DNA from: a bacterium
Lineage (GTDB): Bacteria; UBP15; UBA6099; JAJRTR01
DNA: 55,970 nt
NCBI GenBank assembly: GCA_024278215.1
Contig: JAJRTR010000073.1
Span: 1-55,970, forward strand
Direction: 5' to 3'
Shown: positions 20,401-40,543 of the stretch, piece after piece
Numbering within the stretch: the stretch's first letter is position 1
Layout: each line of letters begins with the position of its first letter
Translations under genes and position numbers: made by a program
Notes under the pieces: generated by a model
Told to the model about the DNA's origin: nothing
The model's database searches: none
Seen by the model: only the letters and a program-made list of their open reading frames with translations

Positions 20401-23400
20401 ATGATGTCGATTTCGCCGATACAGGCGATTCGCTGCTCGACAATGTCCAATATACTATATGGTCCGCCGCTTCGATGGCGGGTACGGAACTCGTTTCGTG
20501 GACTGATATCGCCGATAACATTGATTCCATTTCATACACGACCGACTGGGAGATAGACTTCGAATCCGCCACCTCCGGAGTGAATTACGTTTCAGTGCGC
20601 GCTTTCGATAATTTCGGGAATGTTTCAGATGTCGCGACGGACGTTTTTTATGTGAAAAAGGAGACATCGCCGCCCACAGTAACGGACAACCAGGGCGGCG
20701 ACGCCATCTGGCGGAACGCGGCGGGCACAACTTATGATGTCGATTTCGCCGACACGGGCGGTTCGCAACTTGCCGATGTCCAATATACTATATACGATGG
20801 GGCGGGGCAGGGCGGCTCTATGATACTTGGCTGGTCCGGCATCGCGACCGGCGTCGACGCCGATTCTTATACGACAGACTGGCAGATAGATTTCAACGCG
20901 GCCGCCACGGGTACTAATTACGTATCCGTCCGCGCGACCGACAATGCAGGTAATATTTCCGCCGTAGCCACGGACGTGTTTTATGTAAAAAAAGATACGG
21001 CGCTCCCGACAATAGATGATCAAGTGAGCGGCGACGACAACTGGTATGCCGCCGATCCGGGTGCGATTTATAATGTCGATTTCAATGACTCGGGCGGCTC
21101 GATGTTATCCGCCGCTTCTTATACCGTATATACGGGTACAGGCATGTCCGGTTCGCAAGTCATCTCCTGGGCAACTATCGCAGCCGGCATCGGCTCCGAC
21201 TCATATACAGATAACTGGGGTATAGATTTTGCTTCGTTGCCGTTCGGCATCTCCTATATTTCCGTCAGGGCAGCAGATAACGCTCAGAACAGTTCGGGCG
21301 TCGTTCAGGATGTGTTTTACGTGCGGAAGACGCAGATCGCAATGTCGCTCTCATCATATCCCTCCGGAAGCAACAACACGACAGATATAAAAGCGGGCGA
21401 CCTGGACGGCGACGGTGATCTCGATATCATCGAAGGAAACACCGCCCAGACTAATATGGTATGGCTCGGAGACGGAACCGGTGGCTTCACACAGTTGGTT
21501 TCAGTCATGGGGTCTTACTACACGCAATCTGTTTTTATCGCCGACCTCGACAACGACGGCGACCTCGATGTCGTCTGTGGAAACGCATCAGCGGGCGATG
21601 TGAAAAACCGGGTATGGTTCAATGACGGCGTCGCGAATTTTACCGATGCGGGCCTGAACGACAGCCTGGGTTCGAGCGATACTATGTCCGTATTCGCGGC
21701 GGACCTGGACCGTGACGGCGATATGGATTTCATCGCGGGCAATTATGCGCAGGCCGATAAAGTATGGATAAATGACGGTGCAGGCGCGTTCGCTGATTCC
21801 GGGCAATCACTCGGTTCGTATAATACAAATTCAATATTCGGTATTGATGTCGACGGCGACGGCGATATGGATTTTATCGAGGGCAATAATGGAGCGGACA
21901 GAATCCTGCTCAACGACGGTGCCGCCTCGTTTACAGACTCCGGCCAGAGCCTGGGACTTGCTGATACGAAACATATATATTCCACAGACATCGATGCCGA
22001 CGGTGATGCCGACATAATCGCGGCCAATTACGGTGACGATAAAATATGGTTGAATGACGGCGGCGGTATGTTCACGGATTCCGGGCAGTCGCTTTCGTCG
22101 GGTCTGACGGATTCATTCGCGGCGGGCGACCTGGACGGCGACGGCGATTCTGATTTCATCACCGGTCGCGACGGTACGGATTACATCTGGATAAACGACG
22201 GTTCCGGTACGTTCTCCGCGAATGCGCAGACATTTCTATCAATACCTTCTGACGCTGTCGAAGCTCTGGATATGGACGGTGATGGAGACCTGGATATATA
22301 CGTCGGGCGTTATCAATCGAACAATCGTGTTTATATTAACAATAACAACCATGCCAACGCTGCGCCGATCGCGCCTGCGCTTGTTGGCGAACCGACGCAG
22401 GAATTGTCTTCCGACGACGCTGTCGATGTGACACTCGAATGGACCGGCGGAAGCGATGCCGAGACAGGCGACACCGACCTTCTGACTTATGACGTGCGTG
22501 TCGGTACAACAGGCGGCGGCTGCGAAGTTTTCTGCGGCTGGTTTCCGAAAACGGCGGCATGGCTCGGGCATCGGCCCGGCAACGCGGGCGCGACACACGG
22601 TATTTCGTTGTCGCTTCCGCTCGGCAGCTATTACTGGTCGGTGCGCACGGTGGACACAACATTTAAGGCGAGTTCGTGGGCTGCTGAAGATACGTTCACT
22701 CTTTTTCGCCCAGTATTTGTCGATTCCGGCCAGGAACTCGGGAGCGGAGATACGAACGAATTGTGTGTCGCGGATTTCACAGGCAACGGCCACATGGATT
22801 TTGTCGCGGTCGACGATTCCTCAAATGACCTGTTGTGGGTTAATTTCGAGAATGGAACTTTCAGCGACTCCGGCCAGGGCATGAACGCTGCTTATTCCGT
22901 CGACGTATCATGCGCCGACATCGACGGCGATTCCGATATAGACTACATAGTTGCGTTATCGGGAAATTCAAATATTGTTTGGAAGAACAACGGCACAGGA
23001 ACATTTTCTCAGTCCACATCTTTTGATTCGTCCGACACTGAAGGTGTTGTCTTTGCGGATGTCGATAATGACGGCGATGTCGATGTGATAGATGGGAACA
23101 GCGGTACGGGAAACACTGTGTTCCTGAATGACGGAAGCGGTTCTTTTTCGGATTCCGGACAGTCGCTCGGTGTCAGTAACACTACAGATGTTTTTATAGC
23201 CGATCTGGACTCCGATGGCGACAAAGACATTTATGAATCGAATGATGGAGCGGGCAACGTCGTATGGATGAACGATGGAACAGGCGTTTTCTCCGACTCG
23301 GGCCAGTCTCTAGGGACAGATACGACGACGAAGTCTTTTGGAGCGGATGTCGACGGCGATGGTGATATCGACATGATTGAAGGCAATACGCCGGGAGCGC

Positions 23401-25865
23401 CCAACAGAGTAAGGATCAACGACGGTGCGGGTGTTTTCTCCGGCACAGGCGGAGAATACGGCGGCAGCGACACAACAGCTGTTTATCCCGGCGATATCGA
23501 TGTGGACGGCGACTATGATTTCATCGCGGGCAACACGGCGCAGGGAAACGTCGTGTGGTTCAACAGCGCGGGCGTGTTTTCGGATGCCGGTAATTCGCTC
23601 GGCAGCAGCCTGACAAATACTGTTGTACTTGTCGACGTGGACGGCGACGGGGGCCTTGACTATATCGAAGGCAACGGATCCGGCCCCGATAGAATATGGT
23701 TCAATAACCTCGACACGCCGAACACGAATCCTTCGCCGCCCGCTCCGACTGCTCAGCCGGATTACGAAACGGCTTCCATGACGGTTTCCGTAACGCTCGA
23801 GTGGCCGGACGGAACCGACGCCGAAACTGCGGCCGCCGGACTATTGACTTATGAGGTGCGAGTCGGCACGAGCAGCGGAGCCTGCGACATATTATGCGCC
23901 GCGAAAGAGCGTAACCTGACAGCCGGACCCGGCAGCGGGCCGGGAGTGTTCGGACCTATGAACACGCTCGACCTCGATCTCGCATCCGGCACTTATTACT
24001 GGTCGCTGCGTACGGTCGATCCTACATATTACAGGAGCGCGTGGAGCGCCGAGGATTCGTTCTCTATTACTGTCGACAGCACTGCTCCTTCGACGATAAC
24101 GACCGTCAACGACGGCCTCGGCGACGACATCGACTTTTCTACCGATACTGCCTCCTTTTCCGCAAACTGGAGTGAAGCCGCAGACGGTGAGACTTCCATC
24201 GCGCGCTACTGGTACAGCATCGGCACAAGCGCGGGCGCGTCCGATACCGTAGGCTGGACGGATAACGGAACAGCAACATCGGTAACTGTTACGGGACTAA
24301 GTCTCACAGGTGGCCTGACATATTATATATCCGTGAAGGCCGAGAACGGCGCGGGGCTCATAGGCAATCCCGCCGTCTCCGACGGGCTTCTTGTGGACGG
24401 GACATTACCGTCGGCGGTTGCCTTCGTTTACGACGGCGCGGTTGACGGTGCCGACATTGATTTCTCTTCATCCTCATCCCGGCTTTCCGCAAACTGGGCG
24501 ACTTCATCCGATGATGAAACAAGCATCGCCGGTTACTGGTACAGCATCGGCACAAACGCGGGCGCCTCCGATACTGTGCCATGGACCGACAACGCCGCTT
24601 CCACTTCTGTCACCCTTTCTTCTCTTTCTCTCGCAAATGGACAAACTTATTTTTTCTCTGTGAAAGCCGAAAACGGCGCGGGCGCTTTCGGCAGCGTTGA
24701 AACTTCCGACGGGGCGACTGTAGACTGGACTGCGCCCGATGCTGTTCTGGTCGTTTACGACGGCACGGGTGCCGACATCGATTATTCAACCGACACAACA
24801 CAACTATCCGCAAACTGGAGCGCCGCGTCCGATCCCGAATCGGGCATCCTTTCCTACACATACTCGATAGGAACGACGGTGGGCGCGTGCGACGTTGTTT
24901 CCTGGACGGACAACGCTTCAGGCACATCCGTGACCCACACCGGGTTGTCTCTCGCGGACGGACAGGTTTACTTCTTCAGTGTCAGGGCGTTGAACTATGC
25001 CGGACTTTATTCCTCGAAGGTGTTTTCAGACGGTGTGACCATAAATATTTCAGGTCCGGGCGAAGTTGCAGACCTTATGGCCGATCCGGCAATATCCGAG
25101 ATACTTCTGAGTTGGACGAATCCCGCGGACACAGACTTTGCGGGCACAATAATAATGAGAAGTCAGGTTTCTTACCCTTCGAACGCTTCGGAAGGCACTC
25201 GAATATGCGACGAAGCAACAAACGAATTCTGCACCGATGAGACGAGTCTCGCACAGGGACTCACATATTATTATTCAGCTTTTGCTTATGATATTGCAGG
25301 CAATTATTCGACAGCCGCAGGCGAGGGTGCGCGTGCCACGGCTTCTCTTATTACACCCGGCCTGACAATATATTCCGGCTGGAACGCCGCAGGCATTTCG
25401 CTCGATCAGGTTTATATCGACCTCGCCGCGGTTTTCCCATCCGGCGATTATACGATTATCCGCTGCGACGGCCCGGTGACGAATTACGATGGATACATAA
25501 ATGCCACGGGCACCATACAACTCGATTACGCGGGCGGCTACTGGATATTCTCAGGTGAAGATATAGGTGTTGTCGATTACACAGGCGGAAACGCGCAGAC
25601 GGAAAACTACTACCAGATTTCACTTGCCGCCGGTTGGAATATGTTCTCGCTTCCTTATAACAGTGAGATCGAATGGAACGACACGAACGCCGCCCTCGAA
25701 TGCGGCGGCACAGGCACGTCGCTTCCCACTGTTTACTACTACGACAACAGTACAGGAGAATACACGGAAATCGAAGGTGGAGCCGGGAAGTCACTCATGC
25801 CGTGGAGAGGCTACTGGGTCGAAGTGAATGAGTCATGTACATTGACAATTAATAAACCGCAATAG
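17493..25865 (+). CDS. Giant secreted FG-GAP/VCBS protein: four seven-bladed propellers with Fn3-like linkers
   Basis: This is a 2790-residue protein with a signal peptide (residues 1-27, ending ARLYA). Four blocks of calcium-binding repeats (consensus DxDGDGDxD, then WLNDGxGxFxDSGQ) occupy about 28-365, 488-825, 1280-1615 and 1737-2070. Each has exactly seven repeats of ~48 residues, as expected of a seven-bladed propeller. Each block is followed by a ~115-residue Fn3-like module (LTYDLRVGTSAGACD ... GTYYWSVRTVDT). Three Ig-like modules lie at about 946-1280 (NAAGTTYDVDFADTG), and four Fn3 modules at about 2191-2620. The C-terminal ~170 residues (YSGWNAAGISL, LAAGWNMFSLPY) form a beta-rich end domain. 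Such proteins are usually adhesins or surface-matrix proteins. No catalytic domain, LPXTG or PEP-CTERM sorting signal was seen. The ribosome site before 17493 is weak. Confidence 0.9.
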   Translation: MISYCRYLYTTIIILTLVIVLPARLYAFTDSGQSIGSGNVLSAAVGDIDGDGDPDLITGLNTLGDKLFLNSGGTLTDSGQALDPGDTSGIFIFDVDGDGDLDYVAGNLNGNGGLWLNDGTGTFSDSGLSVGNSTYSFYAVDLDMDGDYDLLEGTDNGVSNKAWLNNGGGVFTDSGRSFDTSTYAAVAGSDLDGDGDTDFVAAVLGSLPNKVWKNNGTGIFTDSGQTLGACDSSSVAIYDFDADGDADVFFGNVGASNTVWLNDGSGVLTDSGQATGASDTYSVAGADMDGDGDYDVISGNANPISGMPNTFWINNGSGVFTDSGEEIGDNDSFAIALSDFDADGDIDIFDGNLSASSALFINDNNHANTTPTAPPLTAEPDIVILEATAAITLEWGAGSDAEAADTDLLTYDLRVGTSAGACDVYCGTFPTVGVSPYHSVLPGNAGAALSHIVALATGTYYWSVRTVDTTYKASAWSVDDSFIVRPIYTDSGQSFDGANTFAVHPLDADGDGDVDFIETIYLDDDVLWKNDGAGTFTKVTQVWNDMNELDGCTADIDGDGDIDFISANNAAQSNRVWKNDGSGTFTDTGQALGSGRTYDCVTVDVDSDGDYDLVAANENGDPNKLYKNNGTGVFSDTLQSMGAEYTMEVVAGDFDDDGDEDVVFANRYAPSQLWLNDGTGALTDSGQAIGSDEARSVFAADTDADGDADILIGYDNATDRIFINDGSATFSDSGQSLVSPKTRSVHVIDVDIDGDLDIIAGNYNAGDKVWYNDGSGNFNDSFMSLGTGETQSIFAVDVDGDGDTDIIEGNSSGEGCAVWENILDPSNTAPSAPSITTKADTIIPGTATVTFEWSDGSDPETADADLLTYDIRIGTSSGGCEAFCGSLPWSGAVPWRNTGPGAMGATGSFSIIMSTGTYYWSMRTVDPASLAGAWGTEDSFVLIQDDAAAPTVIDNQDGDDTWRNAAGTTYDVDFADTGDSLLDNVQYTIWSAASMAGTELVSWTDIADNIDSISYTTDWEIDFESATSGVNYVSVRAFDNFGNVSDVATDVFYVKKETSPPTVTDNQGGDAIWRNAAGTTYDVDFADTGGSQLADVQYTIYDGAGQGGSMILGWSGIATGVDADSYTTDWQIDFNAAATGTNYVSVRATDNAGNISAVATDVFYVKKDTALPTIDDQVSGDDNWYAADPGAIYNVDFNDSGGSMLSAASYTVYTGTGMSGSQVISWATIAAGIGSDSYTDNWGIDFASLPFGISYISVRAADNAQNSSGVVQDVFYVRKTQIAMSLSSYPSGSNNTTDIKAGDLDGDGDLDIIEGNTAQTNMVWLGDGTGGFTQLVSVMGSYYTQSVFIADLDNDGDLDVVCGNASAGDVKNRVWFNDGVANFTDAGLNDSLGSSDTMSVFAADLDRDGDMDFIAGNYAQADKVWINDGAGAFADSGQSLGSYNTNSIFGIDVDGDGDMDFIEGNNGADRILLNDGAASFTDSGQSLGLADTKHIYSTDIDADGDADIIAANYGDDKIWLNDGGGMFTDSGQSLSSGLTDSFAAGDLDGDGDSDFITGRDGTDYIWINDGSGTFSANAQTFLSIPSDAVEALDMDGDGDLDIYVGRYQSNNRVYINNNNHANAAPIAPALVGEPTQELSSDDAVDVTLEWTGGSDAETGDTDLLTYDVRVGTTGGGCEVFCGWFPKTAAWLGHRPGNAGATHGISLSLPLGSYYWSVRTVDTTFKASSWAAEDTFTLFRPVFVDSGQELGSGDTNELCVADFTGNGHMDFVAVDDSSNDLLWVNFENGTFSDSGQGMNAAYSVDVSCADIDGDSDIDYIVALSGNSNIVWKNNGTGTFSQSTSFDSSDTEGVVFADVDNDGDVDVIDGNSGTGNTVFLNDGSGSFSDSGQSLGVSNTTDVFIADLDSDGDKDIYESNDGAGNVVWMNDGTGVFSDSGQSLGTDTTTKSFGADVDGDGDIDMIEGNTPGAPNRVRINDGAGVFSGTGGEYGGSDTTAVYPGDIDVDGDYDFIAGNTAQGNVVWFNSAGVFSDAGNSLGSSLTNTVVLVDVDGDGGLDYIEGNGSGPDRIWFNNLDTPNTNPSPPAPTAQPDYETASMTVSVTLEWPDGTDAETAAAGLLTYEVRVGTSSGACDILCAAKERNLTAGPGSGPGVFGPMNTLDLDLASGTYYWSLRTVDPTYYRSAWSAEDSFSITVDSTAPSTITTVNDGLGDDIDFSTDTASFSANWSEAADGETSIARYWYSIGTSAGASDTVGWTDNGTATSVTVTGLSLTGGLTYYISVKAENGAGLIGNPAVSDGLLVDGTLPSAVAFVYDGAVDGADIDFSSSSSRLSANWATSSDDETSIAGYWYSIGTNAGASDTVPWTDNAASTSVTLSSLSLANGQTYFFSVKAENGAGAFGSVETSDGATVDWTAPDAVLVVYDGTGADIDYSTDTTQLSANWSAASDPESGILSYTYSIGTTVGACDVVSWTDNASGTSVTHTGLSLADGQVYFFSVRALNYAGLYSSKVFSDGVTINISGPGEVADLMADPAISEILLSWTNPADTDFAGTIIMRSQVSYPSNASEGTRICDEATNEFCTDETSLAQGLTYYYSAFAYDIAGNYSTAAGEGARATASLITPGLTIYSGWNAAGISLDQVYIDLAAVFPSGDYTIIRCDGPVTNYDGYINATGTIQLDYAGGYWIFSGEDIGVVDYTGGNAQTENYYQISLAAGWNMFSLPYNSEIEWNDTNAALECGGTGTSLPTVYYYDNSTGEYTEIEGGAGKSLMPWRGYWVEVNESCTLTINKPQ

Positions 25866-29659: not shown

Positions 29660-30718
29660 TCAATCGCTCAACTTGTCAAAAAGAGAATCCATGAAACCGA
29701 CTCGATCCGCGATATTATCCCGCTCCAGCGGATCATTTATCTCGTAAACCGTTTCGCCGTTATGCTCAACTGTCAATATCCACGGCCTTTTCAACACTCG
29801 GATGTTCATGTATGCTGCAAAATATTCGGCGAAATCCTCCATGTAGGACAGGCCTCCGTAGAGTGTGATAAATGGGGAATGTTCCAGTCTTTCATATATC
29901 TCCGGGGCCTGTGAAATCTTCAGTTTCGGACCGCCGAAGAGTCCGTAGAAGACCACATCGCTCCTGCCTTTGAAATCGTATTTTTTCGCGGGTGTTCTGT
30001 ATCCCATCCAGTAGTTTTGTATGAAAGGATACGTTTTATTATCCATAGCCCCGGGCCGCTGCTGGAGCGCAAAGCCCTCTGCCTGGGCTCCGGTCGGTTC
30101 ACCCGGCGTAATGTTTGTCGAGTAGTCGAGTATGTGCCCCATCTCGTGATAGAAAATATAATAGAAACCCGACATACCTGCGCCGATATTTATGTTGATT
30201 GAATATGACGGATCATCGACGGCGAATACGGTTCTTTCTTTATCGGTCAGCCATTGCGACGCATCCTTTTTCAACACAATGTGATTCAGGGCCATAATAT
30301 AGTACTTGTTGCCGTCATCGTCTTTGAACCATTCGGTCCATCCGCTTCCGATCATATTTTCAATGAAGTAGATACCGACCAGCCGGGAACCTATCGGGCC
30401 TTTCATCCGCGGCGGCAGTTGCTCGACAGCAGCTTTTATTTCCGCAAGTTCCGACACTGTCGGGAAATACGCTTTGTATGGTTTGTCCGGCGGAATAATG
30501 TCTTTGTCGAAAGAGGCAAAGTAATCGAGCACGAAATCGGGTGTCGGCTGCACCCGTTCATAGAGTTCGCCGACAGGCGGTATCGTGTAGCTCTCCGGCC
30601 TGACGGCCTGGGGGCTTTCCCCGTATTTTTCGTTGTCGGCAACCGCTGAATTCACGGCTGTGATAATCGTCAACAGCATTAGTAATAATAGTTTTCGTGC
30701 AAAGTATTTTTTGTTCAT
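29660..30718 (-). CDS. Secreted zinc metallopeptidase-like protein (gluzincin, ATLF/PPEP-like)
   Basis: This 352-residue exported protein has a signal peptide (residues 1-27, LLLLMLLTIITAVNSAVA). The zinc motif HEMGH (His191, Glu192, His195) is preceded by a hydrophobic helix start (FYYIFY). About 100 residues later, YMEDFAEYFAAYMN supplies a glutamate third ligand (Glu294 or Glu298). This HExxH plus ExxxE/AEyFA layout occurs in anthrax-lethal-factor-like and Pro-Pro endopeptidase families. The DSTN-like segment after HEMGH (ILDYSTN) fits that group. Close family membership is inferred from motifs only. It is flanked by the unrelated clpC and the catabolic operon. Confidence 0.7.
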   Translation of the reverse strand: MNKKYFARKLLLLMLLTIITAVNSAVADNEKYGESPQAVRPESYTIPPVGELYERVQPTPDFVLDYFASFDKDIIPPDKPYKAYFPTVSELAEIKAAVEQLPPRMKGPIGSRLVGIYFIENMIGSGWTEWFKDDDGNKYYIMALNHIVLKKDASQWLTDKERTVFAVDDPSYSININIGAGMSGFYYIFYHEMGHILDYSTNITPGEPTGAQAEGFALQQRPGAMDNKTYPFIQNYWMGYRTPAKKYDFKGRSDVVFYGLFGGPKLKISQAPEIYERLEHSPFITLYGGLSYMEDFAEYFAAYMNIRVLKRPWILTVEHNGETVYEINDPLERDNIADRVGFMDSLFDKLSD

Positions 30719-31082: not shown

Positions 31083-32108
31083 CTACCCGCGGGATGCCAT
31101 TGTTTCCAGCAGCGAGGCGGCGTTGCTGTAAAGGATTTTGTGGCGCAGTGCGGCATCGCCGCCGGTTGCGACAAGTACTTTGGCGAGAGGAAGAACGATC
31201 GGGAAGAACGGCCAGTCTGTGCCGAACAGGATGCGGTCGTGGTCCACAGCGTCGAGGATGCGCAGGAGGTTGTCTGGCGGCTGCCCGTCTATTTCGAGGT
31301 ATACGTTATCATATTGATTGGCGTAGCTGATGGCTTTTTCATAGAAGTCCATGCCCGCATGGCCGAGAATGAAAGTAATGCCGGGAAACATTCTGAGTGC
31401 TTTTTCGTATGTTTACATTCGGGCGAGAATCTGGAGGAAACCCGGCGCGAGGCTGTTGTAGGCGGTGTGAAACTGAACCGGCAGGCCGGTGCGCTCCCAG
31501 CGGCGCAGCATTTTTATGATAAGCGGATGGTCGCTCGTCATGAATTCGCTGTAGGGGTGTATCTTCAGTCCGCGCGCGCCGTCGGCCACCATGCGGTCCA
31601 TGCGAGCCTCCCAGCCCGGTCTCAGCGGGTTGATCGCCACAAACGGGACAAGGGCGTTTTTGCCCCGCATGGCTTGCAGGTACGCATCCGAATTCTGTGT
31701 GCCGAACGCGAAATCTATAGCCATAACAATAGTTCTTTCTACATTCATATCCTTCATATCCGCCAGAAGATTGGGCACTGTGTGTGTGGCGTTGTCGCCC
31801 TGGTTAGAGACCATCGAAAGCATGTATTGCTGTACGACGCGGCCCGGCAAGTGGTGTTCAAGGTTCATGCCGGACTCCAGAGACAGGTCCACAGGAACAC
31901 CTTTCATGGGGAAATTGTAGAGTGTTCGCGCAGTGCGCCGGTTCAGGTCGAGAGGTGGCGAGAAGAATATCGCGAAGCCGAGATGGGCATGGAAATCTAT
32001 AATCGGTCCGATGTCGTCGGGTTCGGAAAGTACGATGCGGTCGTTCTCGTCGATTTTAAACCAGGGCATTTCCGCAAGCGCCCGGCAGTCATCATAATTA
32101 AGTTTCAT
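31083..32108 (-). pseudogene. Amidohydrolase family 2 interrupted by a single in-frame TAA
   Basis: Read in one frame from ATG 32108 (GGGAG upstream) to 31083, the sequence is a 341-codon amidohydrolase-2 with every motif in place: HxH in IIDFHAHLGF, GLKIHPYSEF, LPVQFHTAYN, then ITFILGHAGMDFYEKAI and ILFGTDWPFFP. Codon 232 (31413-31415) is TAA, between LQILARM and TYEKALRMFPG; there is no frameshift. Metal ligands lie on both sides, so neither half would work alone. It may be a recent nonsense mutation, a sequencing error or readthrough. It lies 170 bp behind the DUF35 gene in the catabolic operon and may once have acted on an intermediate of that pathway. Confidence 0.8.
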
Positions 32109-32278
32109 TTGAGCATCTCCCGTTTTTGGCCCTGTCGCGCAGGAAGCAACAACGTGCTGTCGCGAAAAAAAAGTGTGTACGCTCACAACATTCAGCTATT
32201 GTGTCGTATCAACATTACATGACACTTGAAACCTGACACGCCGGCTTTCAGCTTATACAACTTCCATCCAATAAAGGT

Positions 32279-32758
32279 TCACACCGGTTCGAAGTGATCG
32301 ACATCAAGGATCGTGTTGGTTGTTTCATCGGCGAAAACGGCTTTGACTTTCATACCGAGCTCGACCTTGCCGGGCTCGATGCCTTCGAGTATGTGCGGCA
32401 GGGGAGTGTCCGCGCCCCCGAGTTTTATCATAGCGAGAATATATGGCGGCTTGCGCGGCAGGTGTTTGTCTTCGTAGTTGACCACAGTGTAGTTGGTGAG
32501 CTCGCCGGTGTCGGAGAGTTCGACCCAACTGTCGCTGAGGTCTTCCATGCAGCGTTCGCAACGCTGACGAGGCGGCACGAAAACCCTGTTGCATTTTTCG
32601 CATTTTACGCCAAGTATCTGCTTTTTGTCGCGCAGCGCGATCAGGAATCTGCTGCCGACGCGGCCCGCGAAATACTGATATGGAAGCGCCAGTTTGCCGT
32701 CTCTTATATAACAATGTTCGTGCTTGTCGTCTTTTTGTCTTAGTTTCTGTCTTGCCAT
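32279..32758 (-). CDS. DUF35 zinc-ribbon/OB-fold protein
   Basis: This 159-residue protein has an N-terminal helix (residues about 18-40), a rubredoxin-like zinc ribbon (GVKCEKCNRVFVPPRQRCERC, two CxxC pairs; quoted as separate halves CEKC and CERC) and an OB-fold half (GELTNYTVVNYEDKHLP, ILEGIEPGKVELGMKVKAVF). DUF35 proteins bind thiolase-fold enzymes and often guide acyl-CoA, as in BbsA of toluene degradation and ChsH2 of steroid degradation. The start at 32758 has GAGGAGG upstream; ATG 32773 would overlap the previous stop. It sits 11 bp after the SCP2-SCP2-DUF35 gene, so there are two DUF35 proteins for two thiolase-fold proteins. Confidence 0.9.
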   Translation of the reverse strand: MARQKLRQKDDKHEHCYIRDGKLALPYQYFAGRVGSRFLIALRDKKQILGVKCEKCNRVFVPPRQRCERCMEDLSDSWVELSDTGELTNYTVVNYEDKHLPRKPPYILAMIKLGGADTPLPHILEGIEPGKVELGMKVKAVFADETTNTILDVDHFEPV

Positions 32759-32769
32759 TTGCTGCCTCC

Positions 32770-33930
32770 TCATCTCACCTTTTCAAAATAGAGGATATCG
32801 TTGACGGAGCCGGTTCGCTCGTCCGCCCACACGGGCCTCACCCGGTCGCCGGGCTGCGCATCGAAAAGGTCGTTCTTCTTCAGCATGTGCCAGAAAGTTT
32901 CATTGTCTTTGCAACCGTCCAGCAGGACATGCAGGCTGCCGTAAGGTGTTTCACGTGTTTCGCCCGTCAGGGGGTCGGGGCTGGCATAGTATGTGTCGTC
33001 GATCATGGTGATCTCGCCCCCGGGGCCTACCTCGACAAACTCGTCCGCCCGGCACCTGCACGGCGCGCACACCTCGCGCGGCGGCAACTGTTTCCTGCCG
33101 CACTTCGGACACACGTTCGCCAGTATCTTCTTTTCCATCAGGCCTTCGAAAAACTGTCCCATCACAGGTCCGGTCGAGTATTCCATGTCGACTGAAATGA
33201 TCTTTTTCAGCACTATGAGTTCTTCGACCGCTTCCGCTTCTTCGGACGGTACAAATTTCGCGAAGATTTTGGGCAGTTTCATCGCGAGTTCCATATCGCC
33301 CACAAGCTTTAGTCTGCCCGAGCCGAAAGCGACCATCGGATCGAGTTTGCCCAGCATCAGATCGACGTAATCTTCAGCGCTGACGATGTTGCTGACCGTC
33401 AGGTTGTCGCGCAGGCCCTCTTCGAGCGTGCATTTGCCGTCCTTTATGACAGCGGTCCATTGGCCGCCGCCCTTGCCCGTGAAATCGTAGCCGACAGTAA
33501 CGTCGAGTTCCTGCGCGTACTGCGGCTGGAAGCGATCGACGGCTGTTTCGATGATGTCGCGTGCAGTGATGGGTTTTTTCGGCGGCACATATTTGGTGAA
33601 CATCTGCGGCAGCCTGAGCAGCATCGCCATGTCGCCTTCGGCCCTGACGCGGCCCGCCTGGAAAGCTTCCATGCCGTCGATGCGACCGACCGTCATGCCG
33701 ACGAAAGTTTCCGCGTCCGTAATCATTTTCGCAGTGAATTCGGCGGGGAGGCTGTCGAGTTTTTTAGTTTCGGACTTGCCGCCTCCGATGGCGACCATCC
33801 ATCGGCCGCCGCCGGCGCCGCTTATGTCATAGGCGATAACGGCGTCTACGCCTTCCGCGCCCTCGGGCCGGAACCGTTCCGTCTGTGTACTGAAAATATC
33901 ATCAACTGTAGTTCCGAAATATTCTGCCAT
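32770..33930 (-). CDS. SCP2-SCP2-DUF35 fusion protein
   Basis: This 386-residue protein contains two SCP-2 sterol-carrier domains (residues about 5-113 and 122-228) with matching halves (AVIAYDISGAGGGRWMVAIG and VTVGYDFTGKGGGQWTAVI; each followed by AEDYVDLMLGKLDPM-type helices). A DUF35 module follows at about 247-386, with zinc cysteines 274, 277, 288 and 291 (CPKC...CAPC) and an OB-fold end (GDRVRPVWADERTGSVND). SCP-2 domains hold lipids or acyl-CoAs; DUF35 domains partner thiolase-fold enzymes. The fusion therefore looks like a substrate-delivery subunit for one of the two thiolase-fold proteins directly upstream (10 bp). It is cytoplasmic. An MaoC-type hydratase domain is not present. 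Confidence 0.85.
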   Translation of the reverse strand: MAEYFGTTVDDIFSTQTERFRPEGAEGVDAVIAYDISGAGGGRWMVAIGGGKSETKKLDSLPAEFTAKMITDAETFVGMTVGRIDGMEAFQAGRVRAEGDMAMLLRLPQMFTKYVPPKKPITARDIIETAVDRFQPQYAQELDVTVGYDFTGKGGGQWTAVIKDGKCTLEEGLRDNLTVSNIVSAEDYVDLMLGKLDPMVAFGSGRLKLVGDMELAMKLPKIFAKFVPSEEAEAVEELIVLKKIISVDMEYSTGPVMGQFFEGLMEKKILANVCPKCGRKQLPPREVCAPCRCRADEFVEVGPGGEITMIDDTYYASPDPLTGETRETPYGSLHVLLDGCKDNETFWHMLKKNDLFDAQPGDRVRPVWADERTGSVNDILYFEKVR

Positions 33931-33940
33931 AGTATCCTCC

Positions 33941-35137
33941 TCACCAGTCCAGGTCTTTTTCGAGCATCGTGAGCACAGTCCAGAGAGTGCCGCCGAAACC
34001 CGAGGCCAGCGCGTGTTTCACTTCGCTGGGAATCTGATGTCCACCCGCGTCGCCGCGAATCTGTAGCGCGGCCTCGGCGACACGAACCATGGCCGTAGCG
34101 CCTATCGGGTTCGCGGCCACGACACCGCCGGATGGGTTCAACGGCAGCCTGCCGCCGATCTTCAACTCGTCGTTCTCGACCATCTTCAGATGTTCGTCGC
34201 CTTCGAGCAACATGAACTCGCGGAGCCAGTCGAGGCCCCACCAGGACGACGGGTCGTACATCTCGAACACATCGAAGTAATCGACCGGATTGTCGATGCC
34301 GTTGCGCTCGAACAACTTTCGCGCGGCGAAGCGGTGGGTCGTCTCTTCGCGTTCGGCGTCTTCTTTTCCGAAAAGATTGAATGTTTCTTCGCGATGTATC
34401 GTGATATGGTCGCGTATCCAGACGGGTTTGTCGCTCAGTTCCTTTGCCTTTTCTTCGGAGGCAAATATCATGGCGCAGGCACCGTCGCTCTGTGAGCACA
34501 TGTGAATGAGACGCAGTTCGCCGACGAGTTTGGGTGAATTCTCCATCAGGTCGTCGAGCTGGTCGTAGTCGAGACCGAAGCTGCGGTGCGAGTTCGGGTT
34601 GAGCATAGCGTGCTTATCCATGTCGATGCGAAGTTTCATCGCGGCGCGGCGTGCGCGTTCTTCGCCGAATTCGCGGATCATAGCGCCTGCGGTCGCGCCG
34701 GTGAGCGCGCCGGTCTGAAGGTTGCGGGACCATAGCGGATCGGCCATGTTCGTAATGCCGCCGGTCGTGTGGCCTTCCTGTAGTTTTTCGAAACCGACGG
34801 CGAGTACGATGTCGTACATGCCTGAGGCGACAAGGTTGTCCGCGGCGCATACGAGCGTGGCACCTGTCGTGCCGCCTGTCGTAACGCGGTATGCGTCCTT
34901 GCCGTATGCGCCGGTGCCGATTGTGTGCCACAGGTCCGGCTGGTGGACCATCTCGAATAGTTCCATGTTGCCGTGCACGACGCAGTCGATGTCGTCGTAG
35001 GTCAGGCCAGCGTCTTCGAGAGCGAACCGCACGGCTTCGTTTATCATTTCCGGTTGATTGACATCTTCGCGGTGGCTGGAGTACTGCGTCTGCCCGATGC
35101 CGATTATACCAACATTCCTGTTTCTCTTATGGCTCAA
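33941..35137 (-). CDS. Thiolase-fold protein lacking the canonical nucleophile (lipid-transfer/Ltp2-like)
   Basis: This 398-residue protein has the double thiolase fold of the SCP-x/lipid-transfer subgroup: NVGIIGIGQTQYS at the start, VASGMYDIVLAVGFEKL, and the C-terminal LNPSGGVVAANPIGATAMVR...EAALQIRGDAGGHQI. The usual acyl-binding Cys position reads TTGGTTGATLV, with no Cys. The usual GHP histidine is Asn (AANP), and the second Cys-x-Gly near the end reads SGFGGT. Loss of the nucleophile is known in Ltp2-type retro-aldolases that work with DUF35 partners, so a C-C lyase role is as likely as thiolysis. It lies between a second thiolase-fold gene (13 bp upstream) and the SCP2-DUF35 gene. Confidence 0.85.
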   Translation of the reverse strand: MSHKRNRNVGIIGIGQTQYSSHREDVNQPEMINEAVRFALEDAGLTYDDIDCVVHGNMELFEMVHQPDLWHTIGTGAYGKDAYRVTTGGTTGATLVCAADNLVASGMYDIVLAVGFEKLQEGHTTGGITNMADPLWSRNLQTGALTGATAGAMIREFGEERARRAAMKLRIDMDKHAMLNPNSHRSFGLDYDQLDDLMENSPKLVGELRLIHMCSQSDGACAMIFASEEKAKELSDKPVWIRDHITIHREETFNLFGKEDAEREETTHRFAARKLFERNGIDNPVDYFDVFEMYDPSSWWGLDWLREFMLLEGDEHLKMVENDELKIGGRLPLNPSGGVVAANPIGATAMVRVAEAALQIRGDAGGHQIPSEVKHALASGFGGTLWTVLTMLEKDLDW

Positions 35138-35150
35138 TGTGTGACCTCCT

Positions 35151-36299
35151 TTACTCGGAATCGAGAACGAGCACGGAATGGAATTGGCCGGCCGCGCCGG
35201 TCGTCCCGTGAGCGAGGGCTTTCTTAGCGCCTTCGACCTGCCGGTCGCCGGCTTCGCCGCGGAGTTGTATTACGGCTTCAGCGGCGCGGGCGAGACCGCC
35301 TATCATCAGTGGGTTGCCCGCAAGCATGCCGCCCGATTTGTTCACGTTGCATGTTTTGAGTCCGCCGCCGTCGATCAGGGCGCTGCCTTTGCCTTCGCCG
35401 CACAGTCCGAGTCCTTCGAGCCACATCGGCGTCTGGTAAGCGAAGCAGTCGTTGACTTCCACGAGGTCGAACTCCTCGGCGGGGTTCTTCACGCCTGCTT
35501 TCCTGTAAGCGCGTTCGGCGGCTTTTTTCAGCGAGAAGTTACCGACGAGGTCTTTGTCGCCGAGGAAATAGCTGTCCATGCAGTTGGCGAAACCGCTGAT
35601 CCAGACCGGTTTATCTGTGAATTCCGAGGCGCGCTCTTCGCACACGAGCAGCATGGCGACAGCGCCGTCTGAGACCGGGTATTCATGAAGAAGGCGGATG
35701 GGATCGCACGTCATCGGCGATTTAAGCACCTGCTCTTCGGTCAGCAATTCCCTGGCGTTCGCCGCCGGGTTGAGGGCGGCGTTTTTCCTTGAGTTGACGA
35801 CCACCTTCGCGAGGTGCTCGTCGGTGACACCGGATTTGTTCATATAGGCGCGAGCCTGGAGCGCGGCGACATTCTTAAAGTCCAGTCCCAGCGGCCTGTA
35901 GTAGAACGGATCGAAAGCCAGGTTTGTGACCATATCGCGGCTTTCGGACTGCGATTCCTTGCAGTGGCCGACTATCAGAATGATATCGTCGTGACCCGAC
36001 AACACGCAGGCGAGCCCGTAGCCGATGGCGTTTATTCCATCCATCGTTACCTTCTCTTCGCCCCTGTAATGAGCGCCGACAGCATCGGTCATAGCGTTGT
36101 CGGAGATAGTGCGGGCGTCGAAAACATCGTCCGAGCATGTGATAATATTCCTTATACCGGTGGCCATGTCGAAAGTGACGCCGGTTTTCCGGATTATCGG
36201 TTCCACGATGTCGAACGCCATCTCCTGGAAGCGCTTTTGCCACAGATTGGTGAAGAAACCAGTCTGTTCGACAGCGCAGACAGCAACACGTTTTCCCAT
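35151..36299 (-). CDS. Second thiolase-fold protein of the SCP-x/lipid-transfer type
   Basis: This 382-residue protein is the first gene of the operon. It has MGKRVAVCAVEQTGFF at the start, HDDIILIVGHCKES, the conserved DLVEVNDCFAYQTPM, then GGGLKTCNVNKSGGMLAGNP and EAVIQLRGEAGDRQV. The nucleophile position reads DGINAIGYGLACVLSG; Cys is absent from the expected place, although ACV follows a few residues later. The histidine of GHP is Asn (GNP), and the C-terminal Cys is replaced (HGTTGAAGQF). It shares its fold with the neighbour at 33941 but is diverged, so the two could form a heteromer or act on different substrates. The start is preceded by GGAGG. A TATAAT-type promoter lies just upstream. 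Confidence 0.85.
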   Translation of the reverse strand: MGKRVAVCAVEQTGFFTNLWQKRFQEMAFDIVEPIIRKTGVTFDMATGIRNIITCSDDVFDARTISDNAMTDAVGAHYRGEEKVTMDGINAIGYGLACVLSGHDDIILIVGHCKESQSESRDMVTNLAFDPFYYRPLGLDFKNVAALQARAYMNKSGVTDEHLAKVVVNSRKNAALNPAANARELLTEEQVLKSPMTCDPIRLLHEYPVSDGAVAMLLVCEERASEFTDKPVWISGFANCMDSYFLGDKDLVGNFSLKKAAERAYRKAGVKNPAEEFDLVEVNDCFAYQTPMWLEGLGLCGEGKGSALIDGGGLKTCNVNKSGGMLAGNPLMIGGLARAAEAVIQLRGEAGDRQVEGAKKALAHGTTGAAGQFHSVLVLDSE

Positions 36300-37492: not shown

Positions 37493-40400
37493 ATGACGGA
37501 TGAGCAGAGAAATTTCGCGGAATACAATCGCCCGGAGCTGGCGAAGCTGCTGACGGCCTTGAGGCTGGATGTGGAATATGTGCGGGGGCGTGGCGATTAT
37601 CTTTATTACAAGAACGAAAAAGGTGAAGAAGTCGAAGTGCTGGACCTCGCGGGCGGCATGGGGTCGACCGTGCTCGGACACAACAATCCCGAGATAAAAG
37701 AAGTCATGCAATCATGTATCGACAACGATGTGCCTATGCACGCGCAGGGTTCGTTTCGCGAGTCGGCCGGCAGGCTGGGCAGGAAGCTGTCCGAGCTGTA
37801 TCCCGGCAAGGAAAAGCGGGTCACGATTCTATGCAATTCCGGCACCGAAGCGGTCGAGTGCGCGCTCAAACACGCAGAGTTCAACCGCATGTTGCGGTTC
37901 CGGGAGATCGGCAGGGACATCTACCGTAATTATAAGGAGATGAAAGAATATTTCAGGATGCACTCGAACCTGAAACTGCCGAAAAAATATGCTGAAAAGG
38001 GCGCTGAGGCGCTGCTCAACGATATCCTTCTCCAGACACAGGTGCTCGAACAACTGCCGCCGGTAGTGATCTCGACAGAGAAATCGTTCCACGGGAAAAC
38101 CACCGGGGCGCTGCGTGTTACAGGCAGCACGATGTACCGCGAAGCGTTCCAGCGACTCAGCGGCATCGACGCGAGATTCATCGAATTCAACAACCTCGAC
38201 GATCTGAAAAAAGTACTCGAAAAGAGCTATTTCACTATAAAGAAGATCACAGTGGACGACGGCGTTGTGAAACTTGTCGGCCGCCGGTACCTGAACGTGA
38301 CGGCGTTTATAATGGAGCTGATACAGGGCGAGGGCGGCATAAATGTCGCTACGCGCGATTTCGTGCGCGGCATTGTTAAACTGCGCAAGCAACACGGCTT
38401 CGAATGGATCGTCGACGAGATACAGACGGGCCTTGGCCGCACGGGAAAACTTTTCTGCATCGAGAATTATGCCGTAGACAAAGACGCGGTCGATTACATG
38501 GTGTTGTCGAAGGCGCTGGGCGGCGCCACGCACAAAGTAGGCGCTATGCTCGTGCGTGAGTCGATACACAACAGCCGGTTCGGCATCCTGCACACTTCAA
38601 CATTCGCCGAGGACTCACCCGGTTGCATGGTTGCCCTCAAGGCACTCGAGATCACTACGGCCAACAAAGGCGAGGCATTCAGGATGGCCGCCGAAAAAGG
38701 CAACTACATGAAGGCGAAGCTCAAGGAGATAAAAAAGGAATACCCGGACATTATCAGGGAAGTGCGCGGCATGGGACTGATGATCGGGGTCGATTTCCAT
38801 ATCTTCAAAGAAAGCAATTCGCTGTTCTTCAACCGGTGCAGCAAGCAGGGCGTTTTCGCATCGGTTCTCGCGGGCTACCTTCTGCACGAGCACAGAATCC
38901 GCACAGCGCCGCCGCTCAATTCGCTTGTCGCGGCCCGACCGATGAATGTATTGCGCATCGAGCCGTCGGTTTATATTTCCCGCAAGGATATGGACCGTGT
39001 GATATTCGCTATACGGCGCGCCTGCAAGATCGTCCGCAGGGCCAACGCCTACGAATTCAGCAAGTTTGTAATCGGCAAAGAGACGCCCGGCAAGTACGGC
39101 AGGATAGAAGACTACTCCGGTCCGGCATACAAGCCGCCCGTCGATCCGGAATTCGAGAAATGCCGCCGGATGGCTTTCCTTATCCACCCGCTGGACATCC
39201 ACCAGGTGATGGAGGACTTTGACAGGTCTCTGAGCGGATTCTCCAGGGAGAAGGACCCGGAGACGGGACTGAGCGAACGCGAACGTTACTGGGACATCAT
39301 CGTACCGCTGCTCGATTCGTTTGTGTTCAGAGTCGTACATGTGAAATCGCCGCGAACGGGCGACAGGGTCAAAGCCCATTTCATCGGGTTCCTCTACACG
39401 ACGCAACAGATGGTGAAACTTCGCAAAACCAACCCGGAAGTCCTGATCGAGGGCATACAGAAGGCCGTCGACCTGGGCGCGAGCCTGGGCGCGGAAGTAT
39501 GCGGGCTCGGCGCTTTCACTTCGATCGTAACACACAACGGCACGGATATGGACGATACATACATCAATATCACGAGCGGCAATTCGTACACGGCCGCGCT
39601 GGTGTGGCAGAGTGTGCTCAAGGCGGCGGATTATGCCGGTCTGAAACTCGACGAGTGTACGGGCGCAGTGGTCGGAGCGGGCGGCAACATAGGCAGTGTT
39701 TGCGCAAGCCTGCTGTCCGAGGACATACCACGTCTGTTGCTGATAGGCAGCAGAAAATCGCAGACGGTCGACAGGCTTCGCGAAGTCGCTTATTCCATCT
39801 ATTCTGACAGTGTCGACATAATCCGCACAGCCCGCCCGCAGGACCTCAAGGGCCTCCCGGCCGCGCTCGCCCGGGACCTCGTGCTGCCGTTCGCCGCTCT
39901 TAACTCCCGGGAATACCGCTTCAAAGAAAAAGCGATTAACAATTTTATCGAAAAAAATTATTCGGGCAAAGACCAGAAAATCGGACACCTTGTGAAATCT
40001 ATTTTCTACTCGCGTCCCGATTCCGACATTGGCCGCAAGGTCTACCAGGCTATTCAGCTCAAGCACGGGACCGATCCTTATATCACACTGACAACCAACC
40101 TGAAAAGATATATTCCGCAGGCCGACGTGATCATTTCCGCCGTAAGTGCCGACAGGTCCATCATGGATGTGAAGTGGTTCAAGCCCGGCGCGGTTGTGAA
40201 CGACGCGAGCCTGCCGCCAAGCATATCGACTCAGCTCTACAAAGAACGCCCCGACGTGATCGCCACGCAGGGCGGGGTCGGCCACCTGCCCGAGTACATC
40301 AACCTCGGCATACCAGGACTCGCCGCAGGCGCCACTCTCGGATGTATGGCCGAAACATTCATCCTGACAATGATGCACATGGCCGACAACTACAGCTTCG

Positions 40401-40543
40401 GCAGAATCACAAAACAGCAGGTTGTGAAAATATGGGAGGCCGGCAAAATCCTCGGATTCGGCATCGCAGCAATCAAATATATGGGTAACAAAAAACTCAC
40501 ACGAGACATAGCCGCGGAAATTATGCGCAAATCAGAAAAGTGA
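37493..40543 (+). CDS. Class III aminotransferase fused to acyl-ACP/acyl-CoA reductase-like domain
   Basis: This is a 1016-residue two-domain enzyme. Residues ~1-510 are a fold-type I class III aminotransferase: LDLAGGMGSTVLGHNNPEI, CNSGTEAVECALKHAE, KSFHGKTTGALR, IVDEIQTGLGRTGKLF and Lys340 (LSKALGGATH) for PLP. A ~55-residue helical insert (about 127-185) separates SGTEAVE from FHGKT. Residues ~570-1016 match cyanobacterial long-chain acyl-ACP reductase (AAR): GFLYTTQQMVKLRKTNPEVL, LGAEVCGLGAFTSIVTHNG, NITSGNSYTAAL, NAD(P) loop VVGAGGNIGS, and Cys951 in LGCMAETFIL, aligning with the nucleophile of AAR (ACFAES). AAR makes fatty aldehydes, so the fusion could turn an acyl thioester into an aldehyde and then an amine, or work in reverse. 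It is followed 84 bp later by a GT-C-like gene. Both active sites look intact. Confidence 0.85.
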   Translation: MTDEQRNFAEYNRPELAKLLTALRLDVEYVRGRGDYLYYKNEKGEEVEVLDLAGGMGSTVLGHNNPEIKEVMQSCIDNDVPMHAQGSFRESAGRLGRKLSELYPGKEKRVTILCNSGTEAVECALKHAEFNRMLRFREIGRDIYRNYKEMKEYFRMHSNLKLPKKYAEKGAEALLNDILLQTQVLEQLPPVVISTEKSFHGKTTGALRVTGSTMYREAFQRLSGIDARFIEFNNLDDLKKVLEKSYFTIKKITVDDGVVKLVGRRYLNVTAFIMELIQGEGGINVATRDFVRGIVKLRKQHGFEWIVDEIQTGLGRTGKLFCIENYAVDKDAVDYMVLSKALGGATHKVGAMLVRESIHNSRFGILHTSTFAEDSPGCMVALKALEITTANKGEAFRMAAEKGNYMKAKLKEIKKEYPDIIREVRGMGLMIGVDFHIFKESNSLFFNRCSKQGVFASVLAGYLLHEHRIRTAPPLNSLVAARPMNVLRIEPSVYISRKDMDRVIFAIRRACKIVRRANAYEFSKFVIGKETPGKYGRIEDYSGPAYKPPVDPEFEKCRRMAFLIHPLDIHQVMEDFDRSLSGFSREKDPETGLSERERYWDIIVPLLDSFVFRVVHVKSPRTGDRVKAHFIGFLYTTQQMVKLRKTNPEVLIEGIQKAVDLGASLGAEVCGLGAFTSIVTHNGTDMDDTYINITSGNSYTAALVWQSVLKAADYAGLKLDECTGAVVGAGGNIGSVCASLLSEDIPRLLLIGSRKSQTVDRLREVAYSIYSDSVDIIRTARPQDLKGLPAALARDLVLPFAALNSREYRFKEKAINNFIEKNYSGKDQKIGHLVKSIFYSRPDSDIGRKVYQAIQLKHGTDPYITLTTNLKRYIPQADVIISAVSADRSIMDVKWFKPGAVVNDASLPPSISTQLYKERPDVIATQGGVGHLPEYINLGIPGLAAGATLGCMAETFILTMMHMADNYSFGRITKQQVVKIWEAGKILGFGIAAIKYMGNKKLTRDIAAEIMRKSEK

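Follow-up and report, generated by a model that had tools for sequence, protein, structure and literature searches.

On contig JAJRTR010000073.1 (GCA_024278215.1), a stretch of 55,970 nt called the window here, four co-directional genes of the minus strand (region studied, 32279-36299) encode two thiolase-fold proteins, A and B, and two DUF35 proteins, P0003 and P0004, and it is likely that together these form a heteromeric retro-aldolase (aldol-lyase) of thiolase fold and Ltp3/Ltp4 type. Alignments, trees and locus comparisons show that thiolase catalytic residues have been replaced in both proteins, that A and B are paired and co-diverge across several phyla, that they are placed with Ltp4/Ltp3-type proteins, and that the accompanying DUF35 domains occur in a range of fusions. 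The reaction, the heterodimer, the use of Tyr294 of B as base and the role of A are what we infer. The features on which the argument turns are the following.

35151..36299, minus strand: gene A (382 amino acids, aa), probable partner subunit of thiolase fold that lacks the thiolase catalytic residues; Thiolase_C_1 match; A clade
36102..36134, minus strand: hallmark loop SDDVFDARTIS of A, aa 56-66; best-conserved part of the family (conservation 0.88 over 41 relatives)
33941..35137, minus strand: gene B (398 aa, TTG start), probable catalytic subunit of thiolase fold, with a predicted active site of aldolase type
34871..34873, minus strand: Gly89 of B (TTGG89TTGA), at the acylating-Cys position; Gly in 102/102 B relatives
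34256..34258, minus strand: Tyr294 of B (EMY294DPS), predicted catalytic base, aligned with residue 294 of 6OK1
34109..34111, minus strand: Asn343 of B (ANP), in place of the GHP His

Active-site residues and fold

Active-site columns were read from profile alignments to PDB chains and from a joint alignment with the PDB thiolases 6HSJ, 6ESQ, 7PXP and 7YVY. The acylating position, a Cys in all four of these thiolases, is Gly89 in B and Gly88 in A, where the loop at this site is also 2-3 residues shorter; the His of the HDCF motif is replaced by Tyr294 in B and Asn283 in A, and that of the GHP motif by Asn343 (ANP) in B and Asn329 (GNP) in A. The set of Cys, HDCF His and GHP His found in Cys-thiolases thus reads Gly/Tyr/Asn in B and Gly/Asn/Asn in A, and the initial annotation, made from the sequence of the window, was correct in describing two proteins of thiolase fold that lack the acylating Cys and have Asn for the GHP His. 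The missing C-terminal Cys, which it had added to these, is not diagnostic, since SCP2-type thiolases, the nearest Cys-bearing relatives of A and B, carry their second catalytic Cys inside the HDCF motif (PMC12329534), where A still has a Cys (Cys285, NDCF). A role for Cys285 was considered and dropped, as this position is not kept in A orthologs.

We examined 102 relatives of B, 90 close and 12 distant, together with 77 close relatives of A. Both the Gly at the Cys position and the Tyr at the HDCF His position are present in 90/90 close and 12/12 distant relatives of B, and the Asn at the GHP position in 90/90 and 11/12. In A, the HDCF position drifts among close relatives (mostly S, N, M or C) and the GHP motif is mostly GNP, while the SDDVFDARTIS loop is strictly kept. 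A Tyr in place of the HDCF His combined with absence of the Cys nucleophile, the pattern of the aldolases Ltp2 and Sal, is found in B only, so that within an A-B heteromer only B would keep the aldolase Tyr. In TcLtp2, Tyr294 is the base, as shown by mutagenesis, and Tyr344 the acid; in CtSal, Tyr302 is the base and Cys304 the acid, and a Gly occupies the former Cys position (PMC12329534). Tyr294 of B maps in a fragment search onto residue 294 of 6OK1 (TcLtp2), which has Y294-DHF and Y344.

The SDDVFDARTIS loop of A corresponds by position to the beta2-alpha2 region; in Sal, loops of this region reach into the active site and divide the two pockets of the dimer (PMC12329534), and by analogy the loop of A is perhaps lent to the active site of B. 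A related pattern, SxDxxxxRxxS, is found in an actinobacterial Ltp4-type protein.

AlphaFold2 models, made from alignments without plasmid-derived rows, have a thiolase fold for both B (pLDDT 86, pTM 0.90) and A (pLDDT 92, pTM 0.93; TM 0.91 to 6ESQ). Since the best PDB matches in a fold search with these models are thiolases and 6OK1 and 9MYR (Sal) are also among the matches, the fold cannot separate thiolase from aldolase. A low-confidence loop in the B model (residues 125-144) matches the beta4-alpha4 loop, which is open or mobile in Sal, Ltp2 and BbsB (PMC12329534).

Phylogeny, distribution and pairing of A and B

Trees that took in the four PDB thiolases, further Cys-bearing homologs, Ltp2, Sal (9MYR) and Ltp2-like proteins resolved three separate groups, namely Cys-thiolases (support 97-99), Ltp2/Sal (100), and A with B (99-100), the last forming one clade with support 100 in a reduced set. 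The initial annotation had called for such a phylogeny, and the outcome, that A and B do not cluster with proven thiolases, favours a non-thiolase reading; B groups neither with Ltp2 nor with BbsB, the proteins that it had cited as precedents. Membership of B in the Ltp2/Sal group was rejected (p-AU = 0.0005), as was a BbsAB-like identity, since BbsB has the full thiolase triad and sits in the Cys-thiolase clade.

The relatives are instead paired proteins of the Ltp4/Ltp3 type. A plasmid of Tsukamurella carries genes for a DUF35 protein (309 aa) and two thiolase-like proteins (359 and 390 aa), and this thiolase-like pair, which passes the NCBIfam models PRK07937 and PRK08313 (593 and 734 bits against cut-offs of 419 and 514), splits in the trees, one protein falling in the A clade and the other in the B clade. 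The window thus has adjacent A-type and B-type thiolase-fold genes with DUF35 and shares a clade with the actinobacterial PRK07937/PRK08313 pair. A and B of the window score far below both cut-offs and therefore belong to the same broad clade without being equivalogs, and the exact places of the actinobacterial rows are unsure because of long branches in quick trees. In size and order, the actinobacterial set presumably matches Rv3521-Rv3522(Ltp4)-Rv3523(Ltp3) of Mycobacterium tuberculosis.

Relatives of B were collected in one scan of genome contigs, and their distribution is a lower bound. Among the matches listed, B is 70-81% identical in many Desulfobacterota, including Desulfosarcina alkanivorans and D. 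widdelii, and in Smithella, Syntrophaceae, Spirochaetota, Syntrophomonas-like Bacillota, Calditrichota and UBP15 metagenome-assembled genomes. Three operon copies are present in the window's own genome, that of an uncultured anaerobe (contigs C43, C140 and C199; A ~68% and B ~80% identical), and relatives of A or P0003 were found in 6/6 other searched genomes of the window's order; the viral contigs searched contained no relatives. A lies directly upstream of B in 87/102 cases, and of the 15 exceptions 12 begin close to the end of a contig. The pairwise distances of A and B correlate with r = 0.94 (null maximum 0.24), and with 0.91 within 74 orthologous pairs; the A and B trees branch in the same order, including a second paralogous pair, A2/B2, of Syntrophaceae and spirochaetes. 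This adjacency and co-divergence point, indirectly, to a heteromer of A and B.

The A2/B2 pair occurs with DUF35 proteins of its own at L096:18121-20432 and similar loci. A2 has YDAF and the GHP His and no Cys, B2 has YQP and NP, and the pair is possibly another activity of the same family. Two further thiolase-family genes were seen in the window's genome, one with Cys and HDCF (G000:C183:1066-1791, L007) and one of another Cys-less type with GG, HDAF and MHA (G000:C50:5156-6148, L008). Just upstream of a second operon copy in the same genome, an iron-containing alcohol dehydrogenase is split over two open reading frames (ORFs) (L028:814-2019), and in a related genome a reverse-transcriptase gene lies directly upstream of the operon (L034:6960-8174).

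The operon and its DUF35 fusions

The four genes are separated by gaps of ~10-15 bases or a small overlap, and each is preceded by an AGGAGG-like ribosome-binding site. A promoter and terminator scan gave more promoter-like sites than shuffled sequences but was uninformative. Besides A and B, the operon and its upstream neighbour comprise the following features.

32770..33930, minus strand: P0003, SCP2-SCP2-DUF35 fusion, 386 aa; two Pfam SCP2 matches, zf-ChsH2 borderline
33592..33903, minus strand: first SCP2 domain of P0003, ~aa 10-113; Pfam match in two stretches
33247..33570, minus strand: second SCP2 domain of P0003, ~aa 121-228; Pfam match
32776..33198, minus strand: DUF35 domain of P0003, ~aa 245-385
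32279..32773, minus strand: P0004, stand-alone DUF35 protein with zinc ribbon (CEKC-x10-CERC) and OB fold, 164 aa
36404..36955, minus strand: PHP-domain protein (Pfam PHP), which opens the conserved operon in most relatives

Pfam recognises Thiolase_C_1 in A and B, Thiolase_N in B only, and zf-ChsH2 and OB_ChsH2_C, both above cut-off, in P0004, the likely start of which is the second ATG at 32758, giving 159 aa. P0003 remains just below the zf-ChsH2 cut-off (22.4 against 23.2 bits), and its OB part is recognised only via similarity to P0004; it has the C4 zinc motif CPKC-x10-CAPC, so that CxxC-x10-CxxC is common to both proteins, and the C4 zinc ribbon and OB fold place both in DUF35, in line with PDB comparisons. 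The initial annotation was right in assigning two DUF35 proteins to the locus, but it missed that the first is an SCP2-SCP2-DUF35 fusion. The SCP2 domains suggest a hydrophobic substrate.

Operon context was counted in 76 fetched loci, with domains confirmed on representatives. The usual gene order is PHP, A, B, first and second DUF35 protein; the PHP gene is found upstream of A in 50/76 loci and, in the window, lies 105 bases upstream of A in the same direction. The SCP2-DUF35 architecture of P0003 is kept in relatives, the first DUF35 protein being SCP2-DUF35 in 59 cases and CoA ligase-SCP2-DUF35 in 16, and the second is a stand-alone DUF35, a DUF35-BKACE fusion (23) or a DUF35-MaoC fusion (17). 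Neighbours include CoA ligase (49 loci), BKACE (35), acyl-CoA dehydrogenase (ACAD; 34), ECH (20), TetR (20), MaoC (19), CoA transferase (17) and aldehyde ferredoxin oxidoreductase (7); the last fits an aldehyde product, but is rare. BKACE is either fused to DUF35 or stands alone (for instance L096:12410-13834, L077:12942-13808 and L109:3291-4202). Other large flanking ORFs are mostly unrelated genes.

At L099:2601-5618, the SCP2-DUF35 protein is replaced by one of 1006 aa in which CoA ligase, three SCP2 domains and DUF35 are fused, and similar ligase fusions of 780-1022 aa were seen in 16 cases, mostly in Desulfobacterota. Downstream of the operon at L070:14634-17439 are biotin-type carboxyltransferase and HMG-CoA-lyase-like genes, as in leucine and isoprenoid degradation; since these were found in this one locus only, we do not claim a methyl-ketone route. 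A literature search, mostly outside subscription papers, returned none on DUF35 with BKACE or on DUF35 with syntrophs, and the naphthalene paper on N47 makes no mention of a thiolase or aldolase.

Proposed reaction and alternative explanations

A retro-aldolase working with DUF35 on a CoA-bound, possibly branched or polycyclic intermediate, as the initial annotation had supposed, fits all findings and is our best explanation from the sequence comparisons, although not in the Ltp2/BbsB form in which it was first put. Under this proposal, A and B would form a pseudo-symmetric heterodimer with DUF35 domains on both sides, and two DUF35 and two thiolase-fold proteins per operon would fit an asymmetric form of the alpha-beta-beta-alpha complex known from Sal and Ltp2. 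A CoA ligase would activate the acid, acyl-CoA dehydrogenases would desaturate it, and a MaoC or ECH hydratase would hydrate the product to a beta-hydroxyacyl-CoA. This would be bound by B, with Gly89 sitting where thiolases hold their nucleophile, and Tyr294 would take the proton of the beta-hydroxyl; the Calpha-Cbeta bond would then break, the acetyl-CoA (or propionyl-CoA) enolate leaving and being protonated, and a ketone or aldehyde would be released. A, the non-thiolase partner, would probably shape the pocket, perhaps by inserting its SDDVFDARTIS loop, and the DUF35 domains would dock SCP2 substrate carriers and neighbouring enzymes, as Shy and ChsH2, DUF35-bearing MaoC hydratases, dock Sal and Ltp2 (PMC11321319). 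In heteromeric steroid hydratases and dehydrogenases, one paralog is likewise without catalytic residues, and in the hydratase this paralog leaves space for a bulky substrate (PMC11321319, PMC8399759). The substrate here is likely a bulky or beta-branched acyl-CoA. A tertiary beta-hydroxyl cannot be oxidised for thiolysis, which is the chemical reason for Sal2/Ltp2 (PMC8399759), and by analogy the same rationale would extend to beta-branched acids. Ltp3-Ltp4 itself has been reviewed as a heteromeric aldol-lyase that takes acetyl- or propionyl-CoA off sterol side chains branched at C24 (PMC6678751).

Several points weigh against this proposal. Since B lies outside the Ltp2/Sal clade, the mechanism is carried over to it on the strength of a single Tyr, a single Gly and the context. 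By alignment B appears to have the base and the Gly but neither known aldolase acid, Tyr344 of Ltp2 aligning near Asn343 and the column of Sal Cys304 and Ltp2 His296 being Pro296. Part of the A/B co-divergence is shared descent, and that the actinobacterial pair is Ltp3/Ltp4 is judged from its NCBIfam matches and gene order. Finally, a retro-aldolase does not explain BKACE in the second DUF35 slot (23 cases).

A and B could be two independent homodimeric enzymes, both of them an aldolase or lyase in its own right and each served by one of the two DUF35 proteins. The operon does have two DUF35 proteins, the known enzymes Ltp2 and Sal form homodimers in which each protomer has its DUF35 (PMC12329534), and A2 paralogs keep a Tyr (YDAF) and a GHP His; yet A and B stay next to each other across several phyla and their trees mirror one another, close A relatives have no catalytic pattern at the HDCF position, and the Ltp3-Ltp4 precedent is described as heteromeric. 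We consider this arrangement unlikely, and because the relatives are paired Ltp4/Ltp3-type proteins, a single A-B heteromer is more probable than a pair of separate thiolase-DUF35 enzymes. It could also be that the operon carries out another CoA-thioester reaction that needs no acyl-enzyme, for example a Claisen-type condensation or the decarboxylation or hydrolysis of beta-keto intermediates, with BKACE and CoA transferase. The DUF35-BKACE fusions and the frequency of BKACE and CoA transferase genes (35 and 17 loci) would speak for it, as would TbSLP, a Cys-less relative with very slow malonyl-CoA decarboxylation; such decarboxylation was not seen for CtSal, however (PMC12329534), and the Tyr/Gly pattern of B is the same as in proven aldolases, MaoC fills the same DUF35 slot in other lineages, and the operon of the window itself is without BKACE, so that to this possibility, too, we assign a low probability.

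True thiolases with catalytic Cys and His moved elsewhere are highly improbable. The fold is thiolase-like and Cys214 is invariant in B, but a Cys at this position is no thiolase mark because it is also found in Ltp2, beside the SDG motif (TcLtp2 CCQESDG); no His takes over from HDCF or GHP, and neither A nor B groups within the Cys-thiolase clade (support 97 to 99). Active-site residues and trees together led us to reject a true thiolase. We give as little credence to the idea that both thiolase-fold proteins are dead and serve as a non-catalytic scaffold or lipid-carrier complex, for which the lack of catalytic residues in A and the attached SCP2 carrier domains could be cited: the changed residues of B are strictly conserved over several phyla at 70-81% identity, unlike those of a decaying active site.

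Beyond the heteromeric retro-aldolase, we tentatively suggest, with some doubt, a widespread anaerobic C-C-cleaving platform having a composite active site (Tyr294 of B and the loop of A) and two DUF35 sockets that swap SCP2, CoA ligase, MaoC and BKACE. If so, sulfate reducers, syntrophs and spirochaetes would degrade beta-branched or tertiary acyl-CoAs without oxygen, with isoprenoid, alicyclic or sterol-like acids as candidate substrates. The known thiolase-fold aldolases are from steroid-degrading organisms, most of them aerobes, and the Ltp3-Ltp4 pair is from aerobic actinobacteria, whereas the paired version found here is strongly conserved in many uncultured anaerobes. For the anaerobic breaking of carbon chains at branched positions, the operon offers a concrete candidate enzyme, a putative base in Tyr294, and natural fusions that name the neighbouring steps; the annotation 'thiolase domain-containing protein' gains a testable meaning in hundreds of genomes.

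Other features of the window

An Amidohydrolase_2 gene at 31083-32186 (minus strand) has an in-frame TAA at 31413-31415, and is a pseudogene or affected by a sequencing error, because same-order orthologs are uninterrupted (351-437 aa). At 29660-30718 (minus strand), a 352-aa exported-looking protein with an HEMGH motif is zinc-peptidase-like and has no Pfam match. The plus strand encodes an unusual 1016-aa fusion (37493-40543), with a class-III aminotransferase in its N half and a C half weakly like shikimate dehydrogenase, and a 2790-aa secreted-looking protein with ~22 FG-GAP repeats (17493-25865), to which a 643-aa stretch beside another A/B operon copy is related (L028:12070-13998).

Comparison with known systems

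The operon most resembles Ltp3-Ltp4: in both, a pair of neighbouring thiolase-fold genes, one from the A clade and one from the B clade, stands next to a DUF35 gene; in the actinobacterial set, the B-type protein shows AG, Y-x-P and NP in the catalytic columns, and the A-type protein the related SxDxxxxRxxS loop. It differs in that the actinobacterial hosts are aerobic, that the set examined has one long DUF35 protein rather than two and no SCP2, MaoC or BKACE fusion, and that identity to A and B of the window is low. TcLtp2-ChsH2 (6OK1) is like B in having a thiolase fold without Cys nucleophile, Tyr294 in the same column and a DUF35 partner, but it has a single catalytic protein (a homodimer) with YDHF and Tyr344 and belongs to a separate clade. 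Similarly, CtSal-CtShy (9MYR) has Gly at the Cys position, Tyr302 as base and a DUF35-MaoC hydratase fusion as in 17 relatives of the operon, whereas its Cys304 corresponds to Pro296 in B, its zinc finger is C3H1 instead of C4, and it is a homodimer of a different clade. BbsA-BbsB (7PXP) is anaerobic and combines a thiolase fold with DUF35, but is a true benzoylsuccinyl-CoA thiolase with Cys, HDAF and GHP in the Cys-thiolase clade. ChsH1-ChsH2 and the heteromeric steroid acyl-CoA dehydrogenases have other folds and catalyse other reactions, and are alike in pairing a catalytic with an inert paralogous subunit, which leaves room for bulky substrates (PMC11321319, PMC8399759).

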